41,083 nucleotides of DNA from Mucilaginibacter sp. (GTDB lineage Bacteria; Bacteroidota; Bacteroidia; Sphingobacteriales; Sphingobacteriaceae): NCBI GenBank assembly GCA_016763755.1, contig JAESTD010000022.1, positions 1-41,083 on the forward strand, read 5' to 3'. Below the pieces are notes generated by a model. It worked only from the letters and a program-made list of their open reading frames with translations. It made no database searches and was not told the DNA's origin. Of this stretch, positions 31,842-41,083 are shown one piece after another; positions within the stretch are counted from its first letter, which is position 1, and every line of letters begins with the position of its first letter. The position numbers and the translations under genes were made by a program.

Positions 31842-34397
31842 TTAATCTGATACTACCATTTCGGGTGTAAAAGTTTCTTTCAAAAGTCCATTTTCCCTCA
31901 ACATTTTAGCATACTCGTACTGGCATTGTTTATAAAATTGCGGGTAAATTTCGTTTAGCTCGGTTGTTTTAACGATCATGCCCAGCATTAAGCCTTTCGA
32001 TACTTCATGGTCTTTAGCAGCATCCAAAAATGCCCGTGTATCTTCTATTAAATGGCGGTAATCCCGTATCCTGAGGTTTGCTTTTAACTGTAAAGCTAAA
32101 AAAACCGTCTTCATGTAGTCGGTGAAGTTTTCAGGGCATCGTTTGTAAACTTGTTTATATCGTTGATATATGCTAAGCAGTTGTTCAGTTTTATTCAGCT
32201 TATAATAACTGTCGGCTTTAACAGCTTCAATAAAATATTCATAAGCATAATTTTCAGATAATGCAGAGTGCCTGTAATTATGCTCGAGCGCATTAATATA
32301 CCTTAGGTTTTTTAGAGGCTTTTGAAATAAGATCAATGTATAGGCACCCAGTAAAAAAAGCATATCGTGCGATGCCGTGTTTGCTAAATAGTTGCCTTCT
32401 TTAGGTGGGTTAAAATAAAACCGGGTAAGTTCAACACCTACATCCTTTTTCAACTCGGATGTTGTTATATAGGTATGTATAGCTTCTAAGCATTTGAGCG
32501 GATTGATAGCAAACTTGTTAAAGCTTTCGGCCGGCAAACTTCTTAGTTTATATATGCAATCCTTTAGGTCGGGCATATCCAGCCTTAAGGTAGCCGTCAT
32601 CCCTAAAGCAGTATAAATAAACGCCCGCTTACGATTGCTTAAATTAAATTTCAACAAGCTGTAAAGAGTTCGCCGGTATTTAAAGTTAATAAACTCAAAA
32701 CCGAAGAAGTAATTAAATAACTCAGGGCTGCAATCCTGTTTGAAATATGCAGCGAGTGAATCTGACTGATCTTCTGCTGCGGATTGTTCGGTGAACATAT
32801 CACCCATAAAATTTATCACATCTGCCTTTTCGGTAAGGTTTAGCTTCGCGTGTATCAGCAGTTCAAAGTTTTGTTGCTGCCCGGCTTTAAATGCATACAG
32901 CACACACCATTGTAAAACAGCAACTTTTTGGCCGTTAGTTTCAAATAATCTGTTTATCTGCTCTATTAAACTTTCATCAAAAATGGAGTTATTATTATAG
33001 AGTAAGTACTTTGCTATAGTATGATTTTGGAAATGAATGTTAGCAAACTGTACATATGCATTGTAATGCAATCCTGTACTCTGGTTTATTTCACGCAAAA
33101 AACCTACGCTAAGCATATCCTGATAGGCTTGGTTGTACTGTTTTATCAACCCATTTACCTTCGCCCGCGATACGCTGAAGTTGCCGTTAGAAATATCCAT
33201 CTGTGCTGCAAGGCCATGTAACAACAAAAGCTTTTCTGCCGAATTTTGCCCCATGTATATTTTATTGAGGATAAATACGGAAACAAGATCATACAAACAT
33301 ACGCGGCTAATATTATTTAGGGTAAAATTGGTTGGGTTTTGCTTGTAATAAAACTGAAAATATAGCGGGTGACTAAATTGCAGCGCTAAATCTGCAGGTG
33401 CATTATAATGTTGTGCCGGGTTAATTTTTAAGGCCAGTTGTCTTACCTCATTTGCATCAAACACAGGTACGTTAATGCAGCTGTTCTCATCGCCAATAAA
33501 CCTGATAAACCATTTGTCATCGGCAGTATTAAATTCGTGCCTGTTATTTATCCATGTAAAAGAGCGCATGGTTAAGATAAGTTTAAACCATGGCGAATAG
33601 CGATGTAAAGCAAGTATATCAAGCAGTTGTGCCAGTAATAACCTATACTGCTCATGTTTGTAAACATGCTCGTCAAAAGCGTCTATTATCAGGTAAAAAT
33701 TACCGCCCTTTTCCTGTTGTTGATCAAATATTGACGCAACATCATCATCCGCGGTGTATCCCAACAAAGCCAATAGCCAGTGATTGAGATCCTGCCCGCT
33801 TAAAAATGCGTTCATTAAAGCACTGGTGCTAAAAAAGAGAATAATATCATTGTTATTACCTGCGCCGTTATTTAACAAATGTTCTTGGATCCAGTGAGAT
33901 AGCCCAATAGTTTTTCCGTGGCCGGCTGGTGCTGCTAAAACAGTTGCAGTGTAATCGCCGGCTAAAAAATCATCTAAGTAGTCGGATACTGCCCGCCTTG
34001 GAATGGTTTGGCCATAAGGGATTCCAGATTTATTGCGTAAAACCTGTAAAGTAAAGTTTGTTATTTTTTCGGCGTTAAGCTTAAGGCTATTCCAATCGGG
34101 CGTAGTATGTTCTGAAGTTTTGGTTAGTTTGATTTCCTGGTTCTGGCAAAAATCTTCCCAGCCCTTGTAGCCGCAGTATTTGGCCATTACATCAATGGTA
34201 AATATTGATGGTTTAAACTTGCTGTAAGCAAATCCAAAAATGCGTTTAAGCGTAGTTTCGCTTACACTTTGTTTGGTTTGCCTTAAAATATCGGCAGCAA
34301 TTATACGGCAGTCATGCGGCGTAATATTACTTATACCCGATGTTGTAACAACAGCTCGTTTCAACAGCTCGTAATATTGAGGCAGGAATGATGTCAT
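31842..34397 (-). CDS. STAND-type NTPase with N-terminal helical DNA-binding-like domain
   Basis: 851 residues. The N-terminus (about 25-85; SVSETTLKRIFGF, KPSIFTIDVMAKYCGYKGWEDF) matches a recurrent Bacteroidota module that looks like a small helix-turn-helix. Then comes a P-loop NTPase with Walker A APAGHGKT (156-163) and Walker B LIIDAFDEH (236-244), followed by a sensor-like LILTMRSFTW, resembling NACHT/STAND ATPases. The remaining ~500 residues are alpha-helical, probably TPR-like repeats that sense a ligand. STAND proteins are signal-triggered switches, many of them in anti-phage or stress responses; no effector domain such as a nuclease or TIR is visible here. A small gene sits 24 bases upstream. 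Confidence 0.78.
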   Translation of the reverse strand: MTSFLPQYYELLKRAVVTTSGISNITPHDCRIIAADILRQTKQSVSETTLKRIFGFAYSKFKPSIFTIDVMAKYCGYKGWEDFCQNQEIKLTKTSEHTTPDWNSLKLNAEKITNFTLQVLRNKSGIPYGQTIPRRAVSDYLDDFLAGDYTATVLAAPAGHGKTIGLSHWIQEHLLNNGAGNNNDIILFFSTSALMNAFLSGQDLNHWLLALLGYTADDDVASIFDQQQEKGGNFYLIIDAFDEHVYKHEQYRLLLAQLLDILALHRYSPWFKLILTMRSFTWINNRHEFNTADDKWFIRFIGDENSCINVPVFDANEVRQLALKINPAQHYNAPADLALQFSHPLYFQFYYKQNPTNFTLNNISRVCLYDLVSVFILNKIYMGQNSAEKLLLLHGLAAQMDISNGNFSVSRAKVNGLIKQYNQAYQDMLSVGFLREINQSTGLHYNAYVQFANIHFQNHTIAKYLLYNNNSIFDESLIEQINRLFETNGQKVAVLQWCVLYAFKAGQQQNFELLIHAKLNLTEKADVINFMGDMFTEQSAAEDQSDSLAAYFKQDCSPELFNYFFGFEFINFKYRRTLYSLLKFNLSNRKRAFIYTALGMTATLRLDMPDLKDCIYKLRSLPAESFNKFAINPLKCLEAIHTYITTSELKKDVGVELTRFYFNPPKEGNYLANTASHDMLFLLGAYTLILFQKPLKNLRYINALEHNYRHSALSENYAYEYFIEAVKADSYYKLNKTEQLLSIYQRYKQVYKRCPENFTDYMKTVFLALQLKANLRIRDYRHLIEDTRAFLDAAKDHEVSKGLMLGMIVKTTELNEIYPQFYKQCQYEYAKMLRENGLLKETFTPEMVVSD

Positions 34398-34421: not shown

Positions 34422-34682
34422 TTATGATGCAACAACTAATTGAATGCATTCTCGTACAGTAAGATATTTTGATACATCGCCTTCCGCAACCTTTTTACCG
34501 GTGTTATATTCTTGCGCTATCTCATGTAGCCTTTCTTCCAGTAAACGACAATGGAGGTCTGTATCATAGCCAATCTTAATCAGAGGGGTATTTGCGGTTA
34601 AATTATACGGGTGATCGGCTGGCAAGCCGCCGGTCCTTAATATATCAAATTTAATCTGATTGGTGATGAATATCCTTTCCAT
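34422..34682 (-). CDS. small protein of unknown function upstream of STAND NTPase
   Basis: 86 residues, soluble, mixed alpha/beta by pattern (MERIFITNQIKFDILRTGGL, then a helix around LLEERLHEIAQEYNTGKK). It ends 24 bases before the STAND gene on the same strand, so the two are almost certainly co-transcribed and may work together. No domain recognised. The ATG at 34682 is the only good start. Confidence 0.7.
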   Translation of the reverse strand: MERIFITNQIKFDILRTGGLPADHPYNLTANTPLIKIGYDTDLHCRLLEERLHEIAQEYNTGKKVAEGDVSKYLTVRECIQLVVAS

Positions 34683-34932: not shown

Positions 34933-35604
34933 TTACAAGGATAGGTCAATTATCTGGTGTTTTATGGCAAACAAAACCAGGCCTGCGGTAGTGTGGCAAC
35001 CCACTTTATTAATAAGAGAGGTGCGATGTCCTTCCACGGTGCGCACGCTCAGGTAAAGGGTATCGGCAATCTCCGTATTATTGCGGTCTTTACAGATCAG
35101 TTCAAGTACCTGTAACTCGCGGCGTGTGAGTTTTATGGGAACGTTGCTTATTGTTCTCGTTAAAATATTGCGTTGGTTGGCGCTGTTACTTAAAGCCTTT
35201 TTTACATCATTATTGAAATAAAACCCATTTTTAACAACAGCCTCAATGGTTGTTACCAGTTCATTCTTGTCGCAATTTTTAACCAAGTATGCAGCGGCAC
35301 CATTGTTCACCATCTGCGTTATAAGCATTTCATTTGCGTGTACGGTGAGGATAATTACTTTAATTGTGGGTTGGTTGGTTTGCAGGTATTTATTAAGCTC
35401 GATACCATTAACGCCCGGCATATCAAGATCGATAATAGCAACATCAATATGGCTATCATTGTGCTTAAAGCTGTCGATAAATTCCTGCCCGCCTGGATAT
35501 TCTCCAACTAACTTAAAATCATCTACAGAATTAATGAGCATTGCCAGGCTTTGCCTAAACAAGTTTTGGTCATCAACTACAGCTATGTTTATATCGTGCC
35601 TCAT
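34933..35604 (-). CDS. NarL/LuxR-type response regulator
   Basis: 223 residues. Receiver domain with acidic pair D11/D12, phosphoacceptor D59 in AIIDLDMPG, the T/S position in IILTVHA and the conserved lysine in YLVKN. C-terminal LuxR-type helix-turn-helix with LTRRELQVLELICKDRNNTEIADTLYLSVRTVEGHRTSLINKVG (about 160-203). Its start overlaps the end of the histidine-kinase gene by four bases, so it forms a matched two-component pair, the NarX/NarL-like arrangement. It is the last gene of the cluster, followed by about 250 AT-rich bases. Confidence 0.95.
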   Translation of the reverse strand: MRHDINIAVVDDQNLFRQSLAMLINSVDDFKLVGEYPGGQEFIDSFKHNDSHIDVAIIDLDMPGVNGIELNKYLQTNQPTIKVIILTVHANEMLITQMVNNGAAAYLVKNCDKNELVTTIEAVVKNGFYFNNDVKKALSNSANQRNILTRTISNVPIKLTRRELQVLELICKDRNNTEIADTLYLSVRTVEGHRTSLINKVGCHTTAGLVLFAIKHQIIDLSL

Positions 35605-36425
35605 CCGTTAGCTGCAACTTTAGCTGCCAAGATAGGATATGTTATCTCTATACCAAAACCTTTAGATTCATCTGGTAATATTACATAGGTGGCATTAATA
35701 TTAAGCAAGCGGCTTTCTATATTCTGCATACCCATTCCCTTTTTAAAGGCTTCGGGACTTACCAAGAGGCCTTTGCCATTGTCGCTATAATTAAACAGGA
35801 TATCATCTCCTTCTTTTTTTATACTGATGCTTGCACGACTGGCACCGGAGTGTTTTATGGTATTATTAAGCAGTTCTTCAAAAACCCGGTAAAGTGCCGT
35901 TGCCGTATTAATATCAAAAGCCGAAAGCTCCTGTTCGGCTTCGTTCTCAAAAGTTATAGCCAGTTTACCTGATTGATTAATAATGCCACAATGTTCCATA
36001 ATGGCAGATGCCAACCCGTAATAACGCAAAGTGGTAGGCGAAAGGTTGTGCGATATATTACGCACGTCTTTAACTATCTTATCGATTATGGATTTACTTG
36101 AGTGCGTAAATTCCTTAAAACTTTCATCTTCGGGGCCCGTGGGTTTAAACATTTCTATCAACAAACGCAAGCCCGATATCGTAGTACCAACATCATCGTG
36201 CAGATCCTGGCCTATACGTTTGCGTTCGGCTTCCTGCATTTCTATGGTAGCGCGCAGCAATTCTTTCTGATGAGCTATTTGTGCTTGTTGAAATTCCTGG
36301 CGTTGGCGTAACAACCTATTCTGATTACGTACAGAATAAATGATAAAAGCGGAGACCAGGATAAAAACCCCCACCATTGCCAGTATGATCAGGACCGCGG
36401 TATTGTCGTTGTTTGTGATCTGCAT
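35601..36425 (-). CDS. HisKA_3-type sensor histidine kinase
   Basis: 274 residues: one N-terminal transmembrane segment (about 10-31) with almost no periplasmic part, a coiled coil (about 35-70), then HisKA_3 with ERKRIGQDLHDDVG (phosphoacceptor H76) and HATPase with ELLNNTIKHSG, DNGKGL and GMGMQNIESR. With no sensor domain outside the membrane, it probably takes its signal from a partner. The two multi-pass membrane proteins just upstream are obvious candidates: its start overlaps the end of the nearer one by 37 bases. Confidence 0.94.
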   Translation of the reverse strand: MQITNNDNTAVLIILAMVGVFILVSAFIIYSVRNQNRLLRQRQEFQQAQIAHQKELLRATIEMQEAERKRIGQDLHDDVGTTISGLRLLIEMFKPTGPEDESFKEFTHSSKSIIDKIVKDVRNISHNLSPTTLRYYGLASAIMEHCGIINQSGKLAITFENEAEQELSAFDINTATALYRVFEELLNNTIKHSGASRASISIKKEGDDILFNYSDNGKGLLVSPEAFKKGMGMQNIESRLLNINATYVILPDESKGFGIEITYPILAAKVAANG

Positions 36426-37036
36426 TTGCTAAAACCTATTGCAAATAAAATATACTCAATTAATAGTACCGTATCATGAAATGTCCAGACTATATCAGTG
36501 AATATGCTTCGTTTTAAAAAAAAATTAAATGAAATAAATACCACAAACCCAACAGCATAATACATCAAGAGCCCGGTATTTATCCAGTTAAAATTATCGT
36601 CAGTCCATTTTTTTTCTTCGTTGCCGTTTTTAATAATATAACACATACAAAAAACAACAACAACAAAGGCTCCAATAGGCCTGGTATATGTATTAAACTC
36701 AATTTTGTTTTGAATGAACAGATAATTGATTATACAAAATGCATCAAACAAAAAAATAAGAATATACATTGGTATCTGCCATTTTTTTTCAAATATCCTG
36801 CTAAAAAGTAGTGTTAGGCAAGTAAACTCTACCATTGCATACAGATGCAGTATGCTAACGGTGTAGTAATTATAAGCCAGCATTACCAGCGCAACCAGGT
36901 TTATCACACTACCAAAAATGATAAAACCGAGTAAGATTCTGAAAGCAGAAGGCAAAAAGCGATAATTTTTTAAACCTATAAATATTGGAATAAGCCCCGA
37001 TGCCGGAACAATATAGGTGGCATAAAAATCAAACAT
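36389..37036 (-). CDS. multi-pass membrane protein, tandem paralogue 2
   Basis: 215 residues with about seven hydrophobic segments. It is a clear paralogue of the protein encoded at 37112-37792: shared stretches include PIF.ALKNYR.LP.AF.IL, L.FSR.F.KKW.IP.Y, IQNK.EFNTYTRP.GA, KWTD..FNW.NTGLL.YY and IEYILFAIGF. No known domain. The 3' end overlaps the histidine kinase start by 37 bases, so it is translated with the kinase. Role as a membrane signal receptor for the kinase is inference from context. Confidence 0.85.
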   Translation of the reverse strand: MFDFYATYIVPASGLIPIFIGLKNYRFLPSAFRILLGFIIFGSVINLVALVMLAYNYYTVSILHLYAMVEFTCLTLLFSRIFEKKWQIPMYILIFLFDAFCIINYLFIQNKIEFNTYTRPIGAFVVVVFCMCYIIKNGNEEKKWTDDNFNWINTGLLMYYAVGFVVFISFNFFLKRSIFTDIVWTFHDTVLLIEYILFAIGFSKCRSQTTTIPRS

Positions 37037-37111
37037 AAATAGTAATTGTGCAAGCCTTAAAGATAATCAAAGCCTGTTACAACAACTTCTATTATTATTA
37101 AAATTATTTTA

Positions 37112-37792
37112 CTATTTGTTACGGATCGGCGTGCTGGATATAGCTTTTTCCTCAAGCCCGTATTTACGAAAACCTATTGCGAATAATATATACTCAACTA
37201 TCAATATGCTGTTATGAATGGTCCAGATTAACAGGGTAAGCAGGGTTGGCTTTAAAAAATAGTTCGAAAACGTGAACATTATTAATCCGCCCGAATAGTA
37301 TAAAAGCAGCCCGGTATTCACCCAGTTAAAGCTATTGTCTGTCCATTTAGATTCAACGGTGCTTGTATTAATTATGTAACCCATGCATAAACCTATAATG
37401 ATAAGTGCACCAACAGGCCTTGTATAGGTGTTAAACTCGAGCTTGTTTTGGATAAAAACTAAATCGATAGTGCAAATCAACCCAAAAACTGCTATAAGCG
37501 CATATAAAGGTATTCTCCATTTTTTATTAAATACACGGCTAAATACCAGCGTAACAAAGGTGAACTCTAAAATTGTATATATATGGATCCATCGTATTGT
37601 TCGTACATGATACTGGTATATGGCAATTAAATTGACAAGGTTAAAAAGGCTGGAAACAATTATAAAAGCGCACAGTATCTCAAAAGCAGGCGGAAGTGAT
37701 CTGTAATTTTTAAGAGCAAAAAATATGGGTGCAAGTGCGCTTAGCGGAACCAGGTAATTAGCAAACAGGCTATAAAGAAAAAGGGGATTCAT
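37112..37792 (-). CDS. multi-pass membrane protein, tandem paralogue 1
   Basis: 226 residues with about seven transmembrane segments, paralogous to the next gene downstream. Most conserved are the loop IQNKLEFNTYTRPVGA and the segment KWTDNSFNWVNTGLLLYYSGG before the sixth membrane span, suggesting a shared ligand or partner site. The ATG at 37792 lies inside the stem of a 23-bp hairpin (37778-37832) that also acts as terminator for the gene before it, so translation may be limited. Function unknown. Confidence 0.83.
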   Translation of the reverse strand: MNPLFLYSLFANYLVPLSALAPIFFALKNYRSLPPAFEILCAFIIVSSLFNLVNLIAIYQYHVRTIRWIHIYTILEFTFVTLVFSRVFNKKWRIPLYALIAVFGLICTIDLVFIQNKLEFNTYTRPVGALIIIGLCMGYIINTSTVESKWTDNSFNWVNTGLLLYYSGGLIMFTFSNYFLKPTLLTLLIWTIHNSILIVEYILFAIGFRKYGLEEKAISSTPIRNK

Positions 37793-37841: not shown

Positions 37842-38243
37842 TTATTCTGTTGGTGGGGGAGGTGGCGGTTCAGTGCAATATGGAGGGCAGGGCCTGGTAA
37901 TATCATAGGTATTACTTTGACTGCCATCACCGCCCTCAACTTCAGTACCCGAGCCGCCTCCCTGCGGCATAACGATGCGTTTTAACTGCTCGCCGTTTAC
38001 CACCGGGATAAAGATCAGCTTCGCTGTTGTTGGATCGCCGGCTGTTTCAAGGCCCAGATGGACACGTACAGATTCGGCTCCGGGGTTAAACTTTACAATA
38101 TTGGTAAAGTCTGCAATAGGGGTCGAGAATGAAAGAATGCTAAAATTAGATTCAGGCTCTTCAGTAAAGGCTTTCCAATTAGCGATCATTTGATCGGCCT
38201 CGCTGGTAGGGATACTTCCCTCAGGAAAAAAAGATTCACTCAT
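37842..38243 (-). CDS. small soluble protein with proline-rich tail
   Basis: 133 residues, no signal peptide or membrane segment. The first 95 residues look folded (EADQMIANWKAFTEEPESNF, then strands VRVHLGLETAG, TAKLIFIPVVNGEQLKRIV). The tail is low-complexity: Gly-rich (GGGSGTEVEGGDGSQ), then two cysteines and a run of prolines (RPCPPYCTEPPPPPPTE). The proline stretch is encoded just before the stop. No family recognised. It precedes the tandem membrane proteins and two-component system but is separated from them by the 23-bp terminator hairpin. Confidence 0.75.
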   Translation of the reverse strand: MSESFFPEGSIPTSEADQMIANWKAFTEEPESNFSILSFSTPIADFTNIVKFNPGAESVRVHLGLETAGDPTTAKLIFIPVVNGEQLKRIVMPQGGGSGTEVEGGDGSQSNTYDITRPCPPYCTEPPPPPPTE

Positions 38244-38500: not shown

Positions 38501-41083
38501 ATGAAAACCTCTACCTTTTTTAGCAGATGGATAACTGTTTTGTTAATCCTGCTTTGTACCACTCTCAATGTATTTGCTCAGCGCAATTTTGCCACCACCC
38601 AGCAAAACGGCCGTAGCGATGTTTCGTGCCTGGGCTGCGTTGTAGACAATGCCGGTTTGGCTGTTGACGGCAACCTGCAAACCTATTCAACCCTAACAGT
38701 TGCAGTTGGTGTAGCAGCCTCAACCTACCAGGAATTGATTTTTCCCGGCCCGGCTAAAGTTGCAGCCAACACACCGGTAACAGTAAAGCTGGGTACCGGT
38801 GATAACCTGCTCGATCTTACTTTACTGGGTGGGGTAACTATACAAGCGTATAACGGCACCACGCCCGTAGGTGGCGCAATAGCGGCAGCCACATTGTTAA
38901 GTGCGCTAAGTAATAATAACCAGTTAGAATTGAGTATTACGCCAACCGCGCCTTACGATCGCGTGCGCATAACGCTTAACGGTGGCCTGGTGGGCTTACT
39001 CAGCAGTATCTATGTTTATGATGCCTTTTATACCGGCAACGCAAATGTTGCCTGTAACAATGCGTTTGACGAGTTACATGGCGTTTCATCAGCATTGCTT
39101 GGATTAGGTGTGAATGTTGGCGGTGTTGCCAATCCACAAAATGCCATTGATGGCAACATCAATACTGCATCCACACTAAATGCCGGTATTGCCGCCTTGG
39201 GTGCTTCTGCTCAACAAACTATTATTTATGAAAGATTATCAACTGTAGGCGATTCTGTAAGGCTTACCATGGCTTTGCCCCCTGCTTTATTGGATGTGGG
39301 TATATTGTCCAATATCTCAGTTTCCACATACAACGGTAACACCGATAATAACGATGCTGTTATTTTAAACTCATCACTGATCAACTTGCGCCTGCTTGAT
39401 CTTGCAGGCGGGCGGCAGCGTTTTACAATAACCTATGCACCAACAAAAACTTTTGATAGGGTACAATTGCGTCTTGGTGGCGGCATAGCCAGCCTGCTAT
39501 CCAGCTTGGATCTTTTCGAGGCCGAAAAATTAATACCTCGCCCCGTTATCAGGTTCAATAATGTTGCAACCGATAATGCCAATGTTTGTGCGGGCAGCCC
39601 GGTATCATTAACTGCTGTAGCAGTACCCAACACCACTTTTAAATGGTATACGCAGCCAACAGGCGGCACGGCGGTATTTACAGGCACAACATATTCCCCG
39701 GGCGTGCTTGCCGCCACTACCAGCTACTATGTTTCGGCCATGCGCAACGGCTGCACCGATGAATCAGAACGCGCTAAGGTTACCGTAACAGTTAATCCCA
39801 TCCCGGTTGCCCCGGTTATTATCAATAATAACTTAACGGTTTGTCCCGGCGGTACGGTAACCTTTACTGCAAACCCGGTAGCTGGTGTTACCGTAAAATG
39901 GTATGCAACTGCCACAAGCACAACCGTGCTTGCAACCGGTAACAGCTTTACAACTCCCGCCATTAATGCTACTACAACTTACTATGCAGAGGCTACTGCC
40001 GGCGGTACATGCCCAAGCCCAACACGCACAGTTGCCACGGCTACATTAAGCCCGCTGCCGGTGGTTCCCACTTTAACGGCAAACAATGTTACTATTTGCG
40101 ATGGCGATGTGGCTATACTATCTATAGCATCGCCGGTTGCGGGGCAAACTTATAACTGGTATACCACTGCAACAGCCGGTACGCCTGTATATACCGGCAT
40201 CAATTTTACTACGCCGGTTTTAAGTGCCAATGCAGTTTATTACGCCGCGGCGGTCAATAGTACAGGTTGCGAAAGTGCAACACGCGTACAGGCAAATGTT
40301 ACGGTATCACCTAAACCTATAAGCCCTGTGCTGGCTGCCAACGCGCAATCTATTACGGCAGGGCAAACAGCAACCATAAACGTAACCAATGCACAAACGG
40401 GCATTACGTACAGGTGGTATACATCTGCTAACGCAGCAACAGCGGTATTTACCGGTAATAGTTACACTACCCCTGCCTTATATACTAATACAACTTATTA
40501 TGTATCGGCATTTAATGCAGCTGGTTGCGAGTCGGTGGCCCGTACGGCAATTACCATTAATGTAACGATCAATAACAACTCGCCATGTACGTTTGCAAAC
40601 GTACAAACCGGCAATACCAATGGCTTGTGCGTAGGATGTTTTATCGAAAACGGAGCCCTGGCTGCAGATGCTGATACCACAACAGCATCAACTCTGCATG
40701 TGATTGCCGGTTTACTTGGTGCCTACCAGGAGCAAAACATGGTATTTCAACAACCCGGTTTTGCAGGCGATACCGTGAAACTTGTATTACAATCGCCGGT
40801 GGGCTTGGCCGATGTAAGTTTACTCGGCCAGATCTCGGTTGCTTTATACAATGGAACTACAGAGGTAAACAGGTACACGCTTGATAACAACCTTTTAACA
40901 CTTAGATTATTAGGATCGGGTAACCGTTACGCAGTCTACATCCCGGCAACTGCCGGTTATGACCGCGTGCAGGTACGCCTTAATGCAGGTGTTTTAGGCT
41001 TGCTTAGCGCACTTGATGTTTATTATGCAATTCAGCAATACCCTAAACCTGTATTTGCAAATGCCTCTCCGCAAATTTGCAGC
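38501..41083 (+). CDS. large secreted modular surface protein (Ig_7-type repeats), 5' part
   Basis: 861 codons without a stop, running off the right edge. Signal peptide MKTSTFFSRWITVLLILLCT..NVFAQ. Two related ~150-170-residue modules follow (about 36-185 and 186-355), then four Ig-like repeats of about 86 residues with the pattern KWYxxxxxxxxVxTGxxxTTPxLxxxTTYYVxA (Trp at 382, 467, 553, 639), typical of Ig_7 domains in Bacteroidota gliding and cell-surface proteins. Then a further ~160-residue module like the first two (C-x-x-C motif, TTxSTL, DRVQVRLNAG, LLSALDVY). Likely exported, perhaps by the type IX system through a C-terminal domain beyond the window (inference). Adhesion or matrix binding is the probable role. 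Confidence 0.88.
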   Translation, partial: MKTSTFFSRWITVLLILLCTTLNVFAQRNFATTQQNGRSDVSCLGCVVDNAGLAVDGNLQTYSTLTVAVGVAASTYQELIFPGPAKVAANTPVTVKLGTGDNLLDLTLLGGVTIQAYNGTTPVGGAIAAATLLSALSNNNQLELSITPTAPYDRVRITLNGGLVGLLSSIYVYDAFYTGNANVACNNAFDELHGVSSALLGLGVNVGGVANPQNAIDGNINTASTLNAGIAALGASAQQTIIYERLSTVGDSVRLTMALPPALLDVGILSNISVSTYNGNTDNNDAVILNSSLINLRLLDLAGGRQRFTITYAPTKTFDRVQLRLGGGIASLLSSLDLFEAEKLIPRPVIRFNNVATDNANVCAGSPVSLTAVAVPNTTFKWYTQPTGGTAVFTGTTYSPGVLAATTSYYVSAMRNGCTDESERAKVTVTVNPIPVAPVIINNNLTVCPGGTVTFTANPVAGVTVKWYATATSTTVLATGNSFTTPAINATTTYYAEATAGGTCPSPTRTVATATLSPLPVVPTLTANNVTICDGDVAILSIASPVAGQTYNWYTTATAGTPVYTGINFTTPVLSANAVYYAAAVNSTGCESATRVQANVTVSPKPISPVLAANAQSITAGQTATINVTNAQTGITYRWYTSANAATAVFTGNSYTTPALYTNTTYYVSAFNAAGCESVARTAITINVTINNNSPCTFANVQTGNTNGLCVGCFIENGALAADADTTTASTLHVIAGLLGAYQEQNMVFQQPGFAGDTVKLVLQSPVGLADVSLLGQISVALYNGTTEVNRYTLDNNLLTLRLLGSGNRYAVYIPATAGYDRVQVRLNAGVLGLLSALDVYYAIQQYPKPVFANASPQICS

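Follow-up and report, generated by a model that had tools for sequence, protein, structure and literature searches.

The window analysed here is a stretch of 41,083 nucleotides on a contig of a Mucilaginibacter sp. (Bacteroidota; JAESTD010000022.1, assembly GCA_016763755.1). According to the list of open reading frames (ORFs), its minus strand carries an operon with the gene order SM-TM1-TM2-HK-RR. The operon has its 5' end at 38243, and its first gene encodes a 133-aa small protein with a proline-rich C-terminus (SM, 37842-38243), in which residues 119-123 form a CPPYC tail motif (37875-37889). After a gap of 49 bp, the same strand encodes two seven-helix membrane proteins of 226 aa (TM1, 37112-37792) and 215 aa (TM2, 36389-37036), a 274-aa histidine kinase (HK, 35601-36425) and a 223-aa response regulator (RR, 34933-35604). 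TM2, which ends at 36389, and HK, which starts at 36425, overlap by 37 bases, and HK and RR overlap by 4 bases. A preliminary description made from the letters of the window had reported the overlap of TM2 with HK correctly and called the genes fused, although they overlap yet remain separate. It had omitted SM, which is required as an extra component. The locus fits what we define as an SM-TM-HK-RR cassette, namely SM directly upstream of TM with HK and RR downstream, and we propose that this cassette is probably a split-receptor two-component system, in which SM and TM sense outside the cell and TM controls a kinase that lacks a sensor.

By domain content, HK and RR are an adjacent HisKA_3-type two-component pair. 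HK consists of one membrane helix, a linker, HisKA_3 (Pfam, 41.2 bits, cut-off 24, E-value 2.5e-10) and HATPase_c (30.5 bits, cut-off 26.4), and RR combines a receiver (Response_reg, 84.8 bits, cut-off 30.2) with a DNA-binding domain of the GerE/LuxR type (GerE, 50.4 bits, cut-off 23.5). The likely phospho-acceptor of the kinase is His76 in the sequence QDLHDD (codon at 36198-36200), which lies inside the HisKA_3 match and which we take to have the role usual in that family. Only 75 residues precede His76, and a single hydrophobic helix was recognized among them by eye. Pfam and NCBIfam searches found no sensor domain in HK, in agreement with the earlier account of a kinase with one membrane helix and no visible sensor.

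TM1 and TM2 are paralogues, as had been noted from the sequence, with 53% identity over 205 aa. The tandem duplication is local since, of the two closest named relatives, one has two TMs (L102) and the other has one (L103). The AlphaFold model of TM2 (15 sequences; mean pLDDT 84.7, pTM 0.83) contains seven membrane helices, and the loop that joins helices 4 and 5 includes a further short helix; two of the five models were poorer (67.6 and 60.9). Both of the motifs pointed out earlier, EFNTYTRP(V/I)GA and KWTD(NS/DN)FNW(V/I)NTG, are present in the two proteins. The former is found as EFNTYTRPVGA in TM1 (37406-37438) and EFNTYTRPIGA in TM2 (36668-36700), in the loop between helices 4 and 5, which is predicted to be extracytoplasmic. 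The latter, KWTDNSFNWVNTG in TM1 (37310-37348) and KWTDDNFNWINTG in TM2 (36572-36610), spans the loop between helices 5 and 6 and the start of helix 6, predicted to be on the cytoplasmic side. These locations combine the helix borders of the TM2 model with the number of positive charges in the loops of 148 TM sequences. The mean numbers of Lys plus Arg were, in order, 2.93 (in), 0.90 (out), 2.61 (in), 0.92 (out), 1.90 (in, together with 1.86 Asp plus Glu), 0.99 (out) and, for the C-terminus, 2.26 (in). Because the charges alternate as the positive-inside rule expects, TM is predicted to have its N-terminus outside and its C-terminus inside (N-out/C-in).

On the basis of the same helix borders and charge pattern, the residues that are invariant among close relatives were divided into an outer group (N46, Y66, E70, C101, Q109, N115, Y117, R119, and N171) and a cytoplasmic group (W144, N150, W151, N153, G155, and K204). 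Over all 148 sequences, whose alignment is very wide and may be imperfect, the most conserved positions were G155 (80%), Y159 (70%), an Asn column at position 59 (69%) and W151 (66%). E70 was conserved at 56%, H187 at 31% and R119 at 26%, and no near-invariant polar residue was found in this alignment. Low conservation of E70 and R119 across the wide family is not what a catalytic site would lead one to expect, and it is in keeping with a receptor whose partners vary.

When the TM2 model was compared with known structures using VIA-align, all of the 50 entries listed were G-protein-coupled receptors (GPCRs) or GPCR-like proteins (Z 14.5 to 12.0), with 192-215 residues aligned at root-mean-square deviations of 3.6-5.0 and identities of 5-12%. 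We read the TM2 bundle as having a GPCR/rhodopsin-like arrangement of helices; homology is not claimed, and a Z of about 13 may reflect a common arrangement only. The N-out/C-in charge pattern also belongs to the likeness to GPCRs and microbial rhodopsins. No PDB chain matched the TM family in sequence at E<=1, the best Foldseek match of the model had an E-value of 0.38, and the VIA-align Z values, up to 14.5, are close to what helical bundles commonly give.

Neither TM1, TM2 nor SM gave a match above the curated cut-offs of Pfam and NCBIfam or any match in PADLOC and PHROGs, and membership of the TMs in a known transporter or enzyme family, which would have spoken against the preliminary description, was accordingly not found in Pfam and NCBIfam. 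The SM family had no match in a sequence search of the PDB, and Pfam analysis of 37 SM proteins gave one stray match to Recombinase. A single-sequence search detected relatives of TM in 39 of the 201 genomes sampled from the family, and a profile search detected them in 57 of the 395 sampled from the phylum; for the class, the count was 65 of 295. The three samples overlap and include the window's own genome. Of the relatives with names, eleven are Mucilaginibacter loci and one is a Niastella locus. The genome of the window itself has two further cassettes, a complete SM-TM-HK-RR (L204, G000:C68) and a TM-HK-RR at a contig end (L101, G000:C323).

A survey of genome neighbourhoods, as proposed in the preliminary description, was carried out on regions picked by TM or SM matches. 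Places found by the phylum profile were taken with wide flanks, excluding the closest relatives and the window (itself an SM-TM-HK-RR locus), and 14 places from the family search were added. The profiles used to recognize HK, RR, SM and TM derive from the cassettes themselves, which favours more finds, and gene starts were set at the most upstream ATG. A kinase was encoded on the same strand within 2.7 kb downstream of 138 of the 147 TM genes, so that homologues do not occur mostly without kinases. The fraction was 92/98 in the phylum-profile regions, 13/13 in the named loci, 14/16 in the family-search subset, 18/19 in SM-seeded regions and 1/1 for the third copy of the own genome; these groups overlap in part and were not made non-redundant, whereas identical sequences were removed for the counts given below that refer to 121 TM-HK pairs, 134 TM genes, 138 CP-tailed SMs and 48 tail-blind SMs. 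Within 600 bp, a kinase followed 121 of the 147 TM genes but only one of 730 other ORFs from the same stretches, a background that excludes ORFs just upstream of TM, overlapping called features or near the ends of the stretches. The linkage was reproduced in a hold-out of 71 TM genes in 69 regions, from genomes first met in the class survey and with profiles fixed beforehand: HK followed 69 of the 71, 66 of them within 600 bp, and RR lay within 4.5 kb for 66. The TM stop overlaps the HK start in 76 of 121 pairs, a number that is favoured by the choice of the most upstream ATG.

Some cassettes depart from the standard form. In six loci (L160, L162, L163, L164, L166, and L167), kinase and receiver share one frame of 547-561 aa as a hybrid kinase and TM is separate. 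In five others (L070, L075, L077, L096, and L154), the kinase match begins 438-604 bp after TM, and these kinases may hold an extra N-terminal domain because the match starts late. Three loci (L168, L169, and L214) have SM-TM pairs without a kinase in the stretch; the genomes of L168 and L169 are 1.8 and 1.6 Mb in size, and L169 is near a contig end. No fusion of TM and kinase in a single ORF was found among TM frames longer than 320 aa in the fetched regions, the sole long frame being a fusion of SM and TM.

An SM, recognized by profile or by a Cys-Pro (CP) tail of the form CPx(1-4)C, was encoded upstream of 105 of the 134 TM genes that are first in their run, and of 57 of 70 in the hold-out. 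The tail was present in 84 of the 134 ORFs upstream of TM, compared with 2 of 879 background ORFs. In the reciprocal search, 20 SM stretches without a previously noted TM were examined (G562:C1 not among them). With a refined profile, TM was found beside SM in 19 of these, 18 of which also had a kinase, and the one exception lies 54 bp from a contig end. The order SM-TM-SM-TM-HK was observed in L082 and L096. Double SM proteins also occur: one was recognized by eye in L075, and in L211 and L212 the profile identified one of about 250 aa that is encoded between TM and HK, besides the upstream SM.

SM sequences are diverse, with a mean column identity of 23% in an alignment of 37. The rows of this alignment, from which the main SM profile derives, were picked by their CP tail; the invariance of the tail among them is therefore no evidence. 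A profile blind to the tail retrieved 48 distinct SM ORFs, of which 37 have CPx(1-4)C in their last 45 residues. Of 138 CP-tailed SMs, 125 carry the motif as exactly CPxxC, at a median of 8 residues from the C-terminus. A redox or metal switch formed by the cysteines was considered as a general mechanism of the tail and rejected, since the second or both cysteines are absent from 10 of the 48 tail-blind SMs. Because some SMs lack one or both cysteines, a recognition peptide is more likely than such a switch.

The trees of the components were compared with those obtained after shuffling within genomes. For TM and HK, the Spearman coefficient was 0.464 in 102 cassettes, a value reached by none of 300 shuffles (mean 0.339), and in a set of 70 cassettes the observed value was reached by 7 of 500. 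The trees of HK and SM likewise agree beyond the shuffles (0/500).

The proposed split receptor draws on computed evidence: the linkage of the four genes, charges that indicate an N-out topology, a kinase in which no sensor domain was found, the agreement of the TM and kinase trees, and one natural SM-TM fusion. Binding, the direction in which the signal runs, the stimulus and the genes that form the output are inferred. TM would be a seven-helix receptor with its N-terminus outside and its C-terminus inside, and SM would be its extracytoplasmic partner, either a small ectodomain or a protein ligand. SM would offer its CPPxC-type tail to TM on the outer face, where helix 1 starts and a loop joins helices 4 and 5. 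The bundle would shift when SM binds or changes, and the cytoplasmic side of TM (the loop between helices 5 and 6, the start of helix 6 and the C-terminus) would relay the shift to the kinase at its single helix and linker; the kinase would then phosphorylate the GerE-type regulator. That TM acts as a receptor passing signals to HK had been suggested in the preliminary description, and it remains a putative role here. In a more specific form of the proposal, SM would serve a GPCR-like TM as its dedicated protein ligand. The SM tail would be an agonist, tethered or diffusible, in the outer cavity of the bundle, and the bundle would drive the kinase, with SM reaching the surface by a signal peptide, by a lipid anchor or without a leader. 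We regard this form as rather unlikely.

Several observations weigh against the split receptor. Upstream of 29 of the 134 TM genes (13 of 70 in the hold-out), neither the SM profile nor a CP tail was detected. The tail is not strict, as 11 of the 48 tail-blind SMs are without CPx(1-4)C; seven of these have CPP and one Cys, three have PP without Cys and one ends otherwise. The structural model of SM is poor (pLDDT 59.3), and a PDB search with it gave no match below an E-value of 0.38. The SM and TM trees agreed no better than expected from shuffling, the observed value of 0.381 being reached by 107 of 500 shuffles (8 multi-copy genomes). Nine TM genes of the main survey (L125, L136 with a regulator only, two in L139, the second TM in L141, L155, L168, L169, and L214) and two of the hold-out (L254 and L285) have no kinase. 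About 0.5 kb remains to the contig end in L169 and about 1.1 kb in L285; the other kinase-less genes, which have more room, are real exceptions in the stretch read. Finally, 105 of the 138 CP-tailed SMs have no signal peptide or membrane anchor according to a crude hydropathy test, and no signal peptide is visible by eye in the SM of the window. The route of the leaderless SMs to the outside is unexplained because they have no export signal.

The leaderless SMs are what speaks for a cytoplasmic SM that regulates TM or the kinase from within the cell, the anchored and lipoprotein forms being side branches. The same hydropathy test found a hydrophobic N-terminal segment in 33 of the 138 CP-tailed SMs, 16 of them lipobox-like, which is in favour of the split receptor. 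We consider a cytoplasmic SM improbable for three reasons. First, the SM of the second cassette of the window's own genome (L204) is lipoprotein-like and keeps a CPTMC tail. Second, the loop charges of TM are similar whether the paired SM is anchored (14 pairs) or leaderless (83 pairs). Third, a single ORF of 516 aa in L225 (3465-5012), followed by HK and RR, consists of a signal-peptide-like start (by eye), an SM-like region ending in CPPHC, and seven helices. Since the SM-like region lies behind the signal-peptide-like start and ahead of an N-out helix 1, SM is placed outside in that protein. With the widest SM profile, the first 300 residues of this ORF scored 34.2 bits, with the best stretch at 166-294 (29.1 bits). 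Against the weight of this fusion, its SM part scored only 14.2 bits with an earlier profile and was not called at E 1e-3, and the fusion is one case in one genome.

TM could instead be a transporter or a transport-like sensor, with the kinase reading substrate occupancy or flux and SM serving as a substrate-binding helper. Transporter-type sensing has a precedent in the UhpC-UhpB-UhpA system of E. coli, in which a separate multi-helix membrane protein, UhpC, informs a HisKA_3-type kinase, UhpB, that drives a GerE-type regulator. The cassette resembles this system in its combination of a separate membrane protein, a HisKA_3 kinase and a GerE regulator, and UhpB is second among the NCBIfam matches of HK and UhpA fifth among those of RR, both far below the cut-off. 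UhpC, however, is a transporter relative with twelve helices, whereas the membrane protein of the cassette has seven, has no transporter match above the cut-off and is paired with a CP-tailed SM. A weak match to MnhB (PF04039), a subunit of Na+/H+ antiporters, recurs: among 32 TM members searched against Pfam at E<=0.01, five families were matched, MnhB by three members (best 6.1e-5) and the others by one each. In the window, Phage_holin_9 and MnhB were the only Pfam families matched by the TMs at E<=1, hence no match of the major facilitator type was found, and the MnhB scores of TM2 (19.4 bits) and TM1 (13.1 bits) are under the cut-off of 22.5 bits, the match of TM2 covering only positions 35-103 of the 127 in the profile. 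Moreover, a bundle of 215 aa is small for a secondary transporter, and no transporter gene recurs next to the cassettes as judged by gene sizes, the neighbours not having been searched individually for families. A transporter is thus quite improbable.

The order of a small protein, a membrane protein, a kinase and a regulator also resembles agr, which raises the question of whether SM serves as a precursor from which TM cuts out the CP tail, the product then being sensed. SM and the two TMs evolve faster than their neighbours, as this would suggest: among the 11 Mucilaginibacter relatives, their mean identities are 53, 49 and 51%, compared with 74% for the kinase and 67% for the regulator. This kind of peptide signalling is nevertheless highly unlikely, given that the conservation pattern of TM in the wide and possibly imperfect alignment is unlike that of a catalytic site, that the kinase itself lacks a sensing region, and that the natural SM-TM fusion points to a stable partner rather than a precursor. 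Equally unlikely is a TM that is a constitutive, LiaF-like brake on the kinase reacting to the state of the membrane, with an SM unrelated to sensing, because this account, although LiaS is third among the NCBIfam matches of HK (below the cut-off) and overlapping genes fit a complex, leaves the constant pairing of SM with TM and the SM-TM fusion unexplained.

The split receptor can also be set beside other known receptors and accessory proteins. The 7TMR-DISM proteins (PF07695) are seven-helix receptors of bacteria that carry an extracytoplasmic domain at the N-terminus and are fused to their output domains. The window TMs share with them the number of helices and were not matched by the PF07695 profile; in the own genome, this profile matched at E<=1 only C296 (G000:C296, 3.2e-43) and C149, and not the contig of the window (C233). 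LiaF is a negative regulator beside the kinase LiaS (PMC3543457); the cassette is like LiaF-LiaS-LiaR in having an accessory protein beside the kinase, and differs in that the window TMs have no LiaF match in Pfam or NCBIfam and that a CP-tailed SM is added. In QseG-QseE-QseF, an accessory lipoprotein binds and activates the kinase (abstract of PMC12691602). QseG, as described there, offers a model for the lipoprotein-like SMs, with the difference that in the cassette TM stands between SM and the kinase; that abstract names no seven-helix protein. Accessory membrane proteins and lipoproteins for kinases are therefore already known, and what appears to be new are the TM and SM families, their pairing and the tail. 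No description of these was found in the portion of the open-licence PMC literature covered, and an account may exist elsewhere.

The genes around the operon may be connected with it. Downstream of RR on the same strand are ORFs for an 86-aa product (34422-34682) and for an 851-aa product (31842-34397) with weak NACHT/STAND matches below the cut-off. Homologues of these two genes follow the cassette in 8 and 7, respectively, of the 11 named Mucilaginibacter loci (5-kb flanks), and because of this recurrence the two genes may belong to the cassette or be controlled by it. The divergent gene on the plus strand (38501-41083), which is open at the end of the window, encodes a large protein in which four stretches are of the Ig_7 (CHU_C-associated) type. 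It occupies the equivalent place in 4 of the 11 loci and is a possible target of RR.

Kinases without a recognizable sensor are common in bacteria, and the partner that informs them is an open question. The cassette supplies such kinases with a candidate sensor, made of two families that are absent from the libraries searched. The occurrence of leaderless, lipoprotein-like and receptor-fused forms of SM raises the question of how SM is exported. If SM is a ligand of a GPCR-like TM, the diversified SM-TM pairs within one genome would represent parallel channels of cell-cell or self-recognition in Bacteroidota. TM itself is a candidate receptor of the seven-helix type in bacteria, and because the gene for its putative protein partner lies beside its own, the receptor-partner pair is directly testable.

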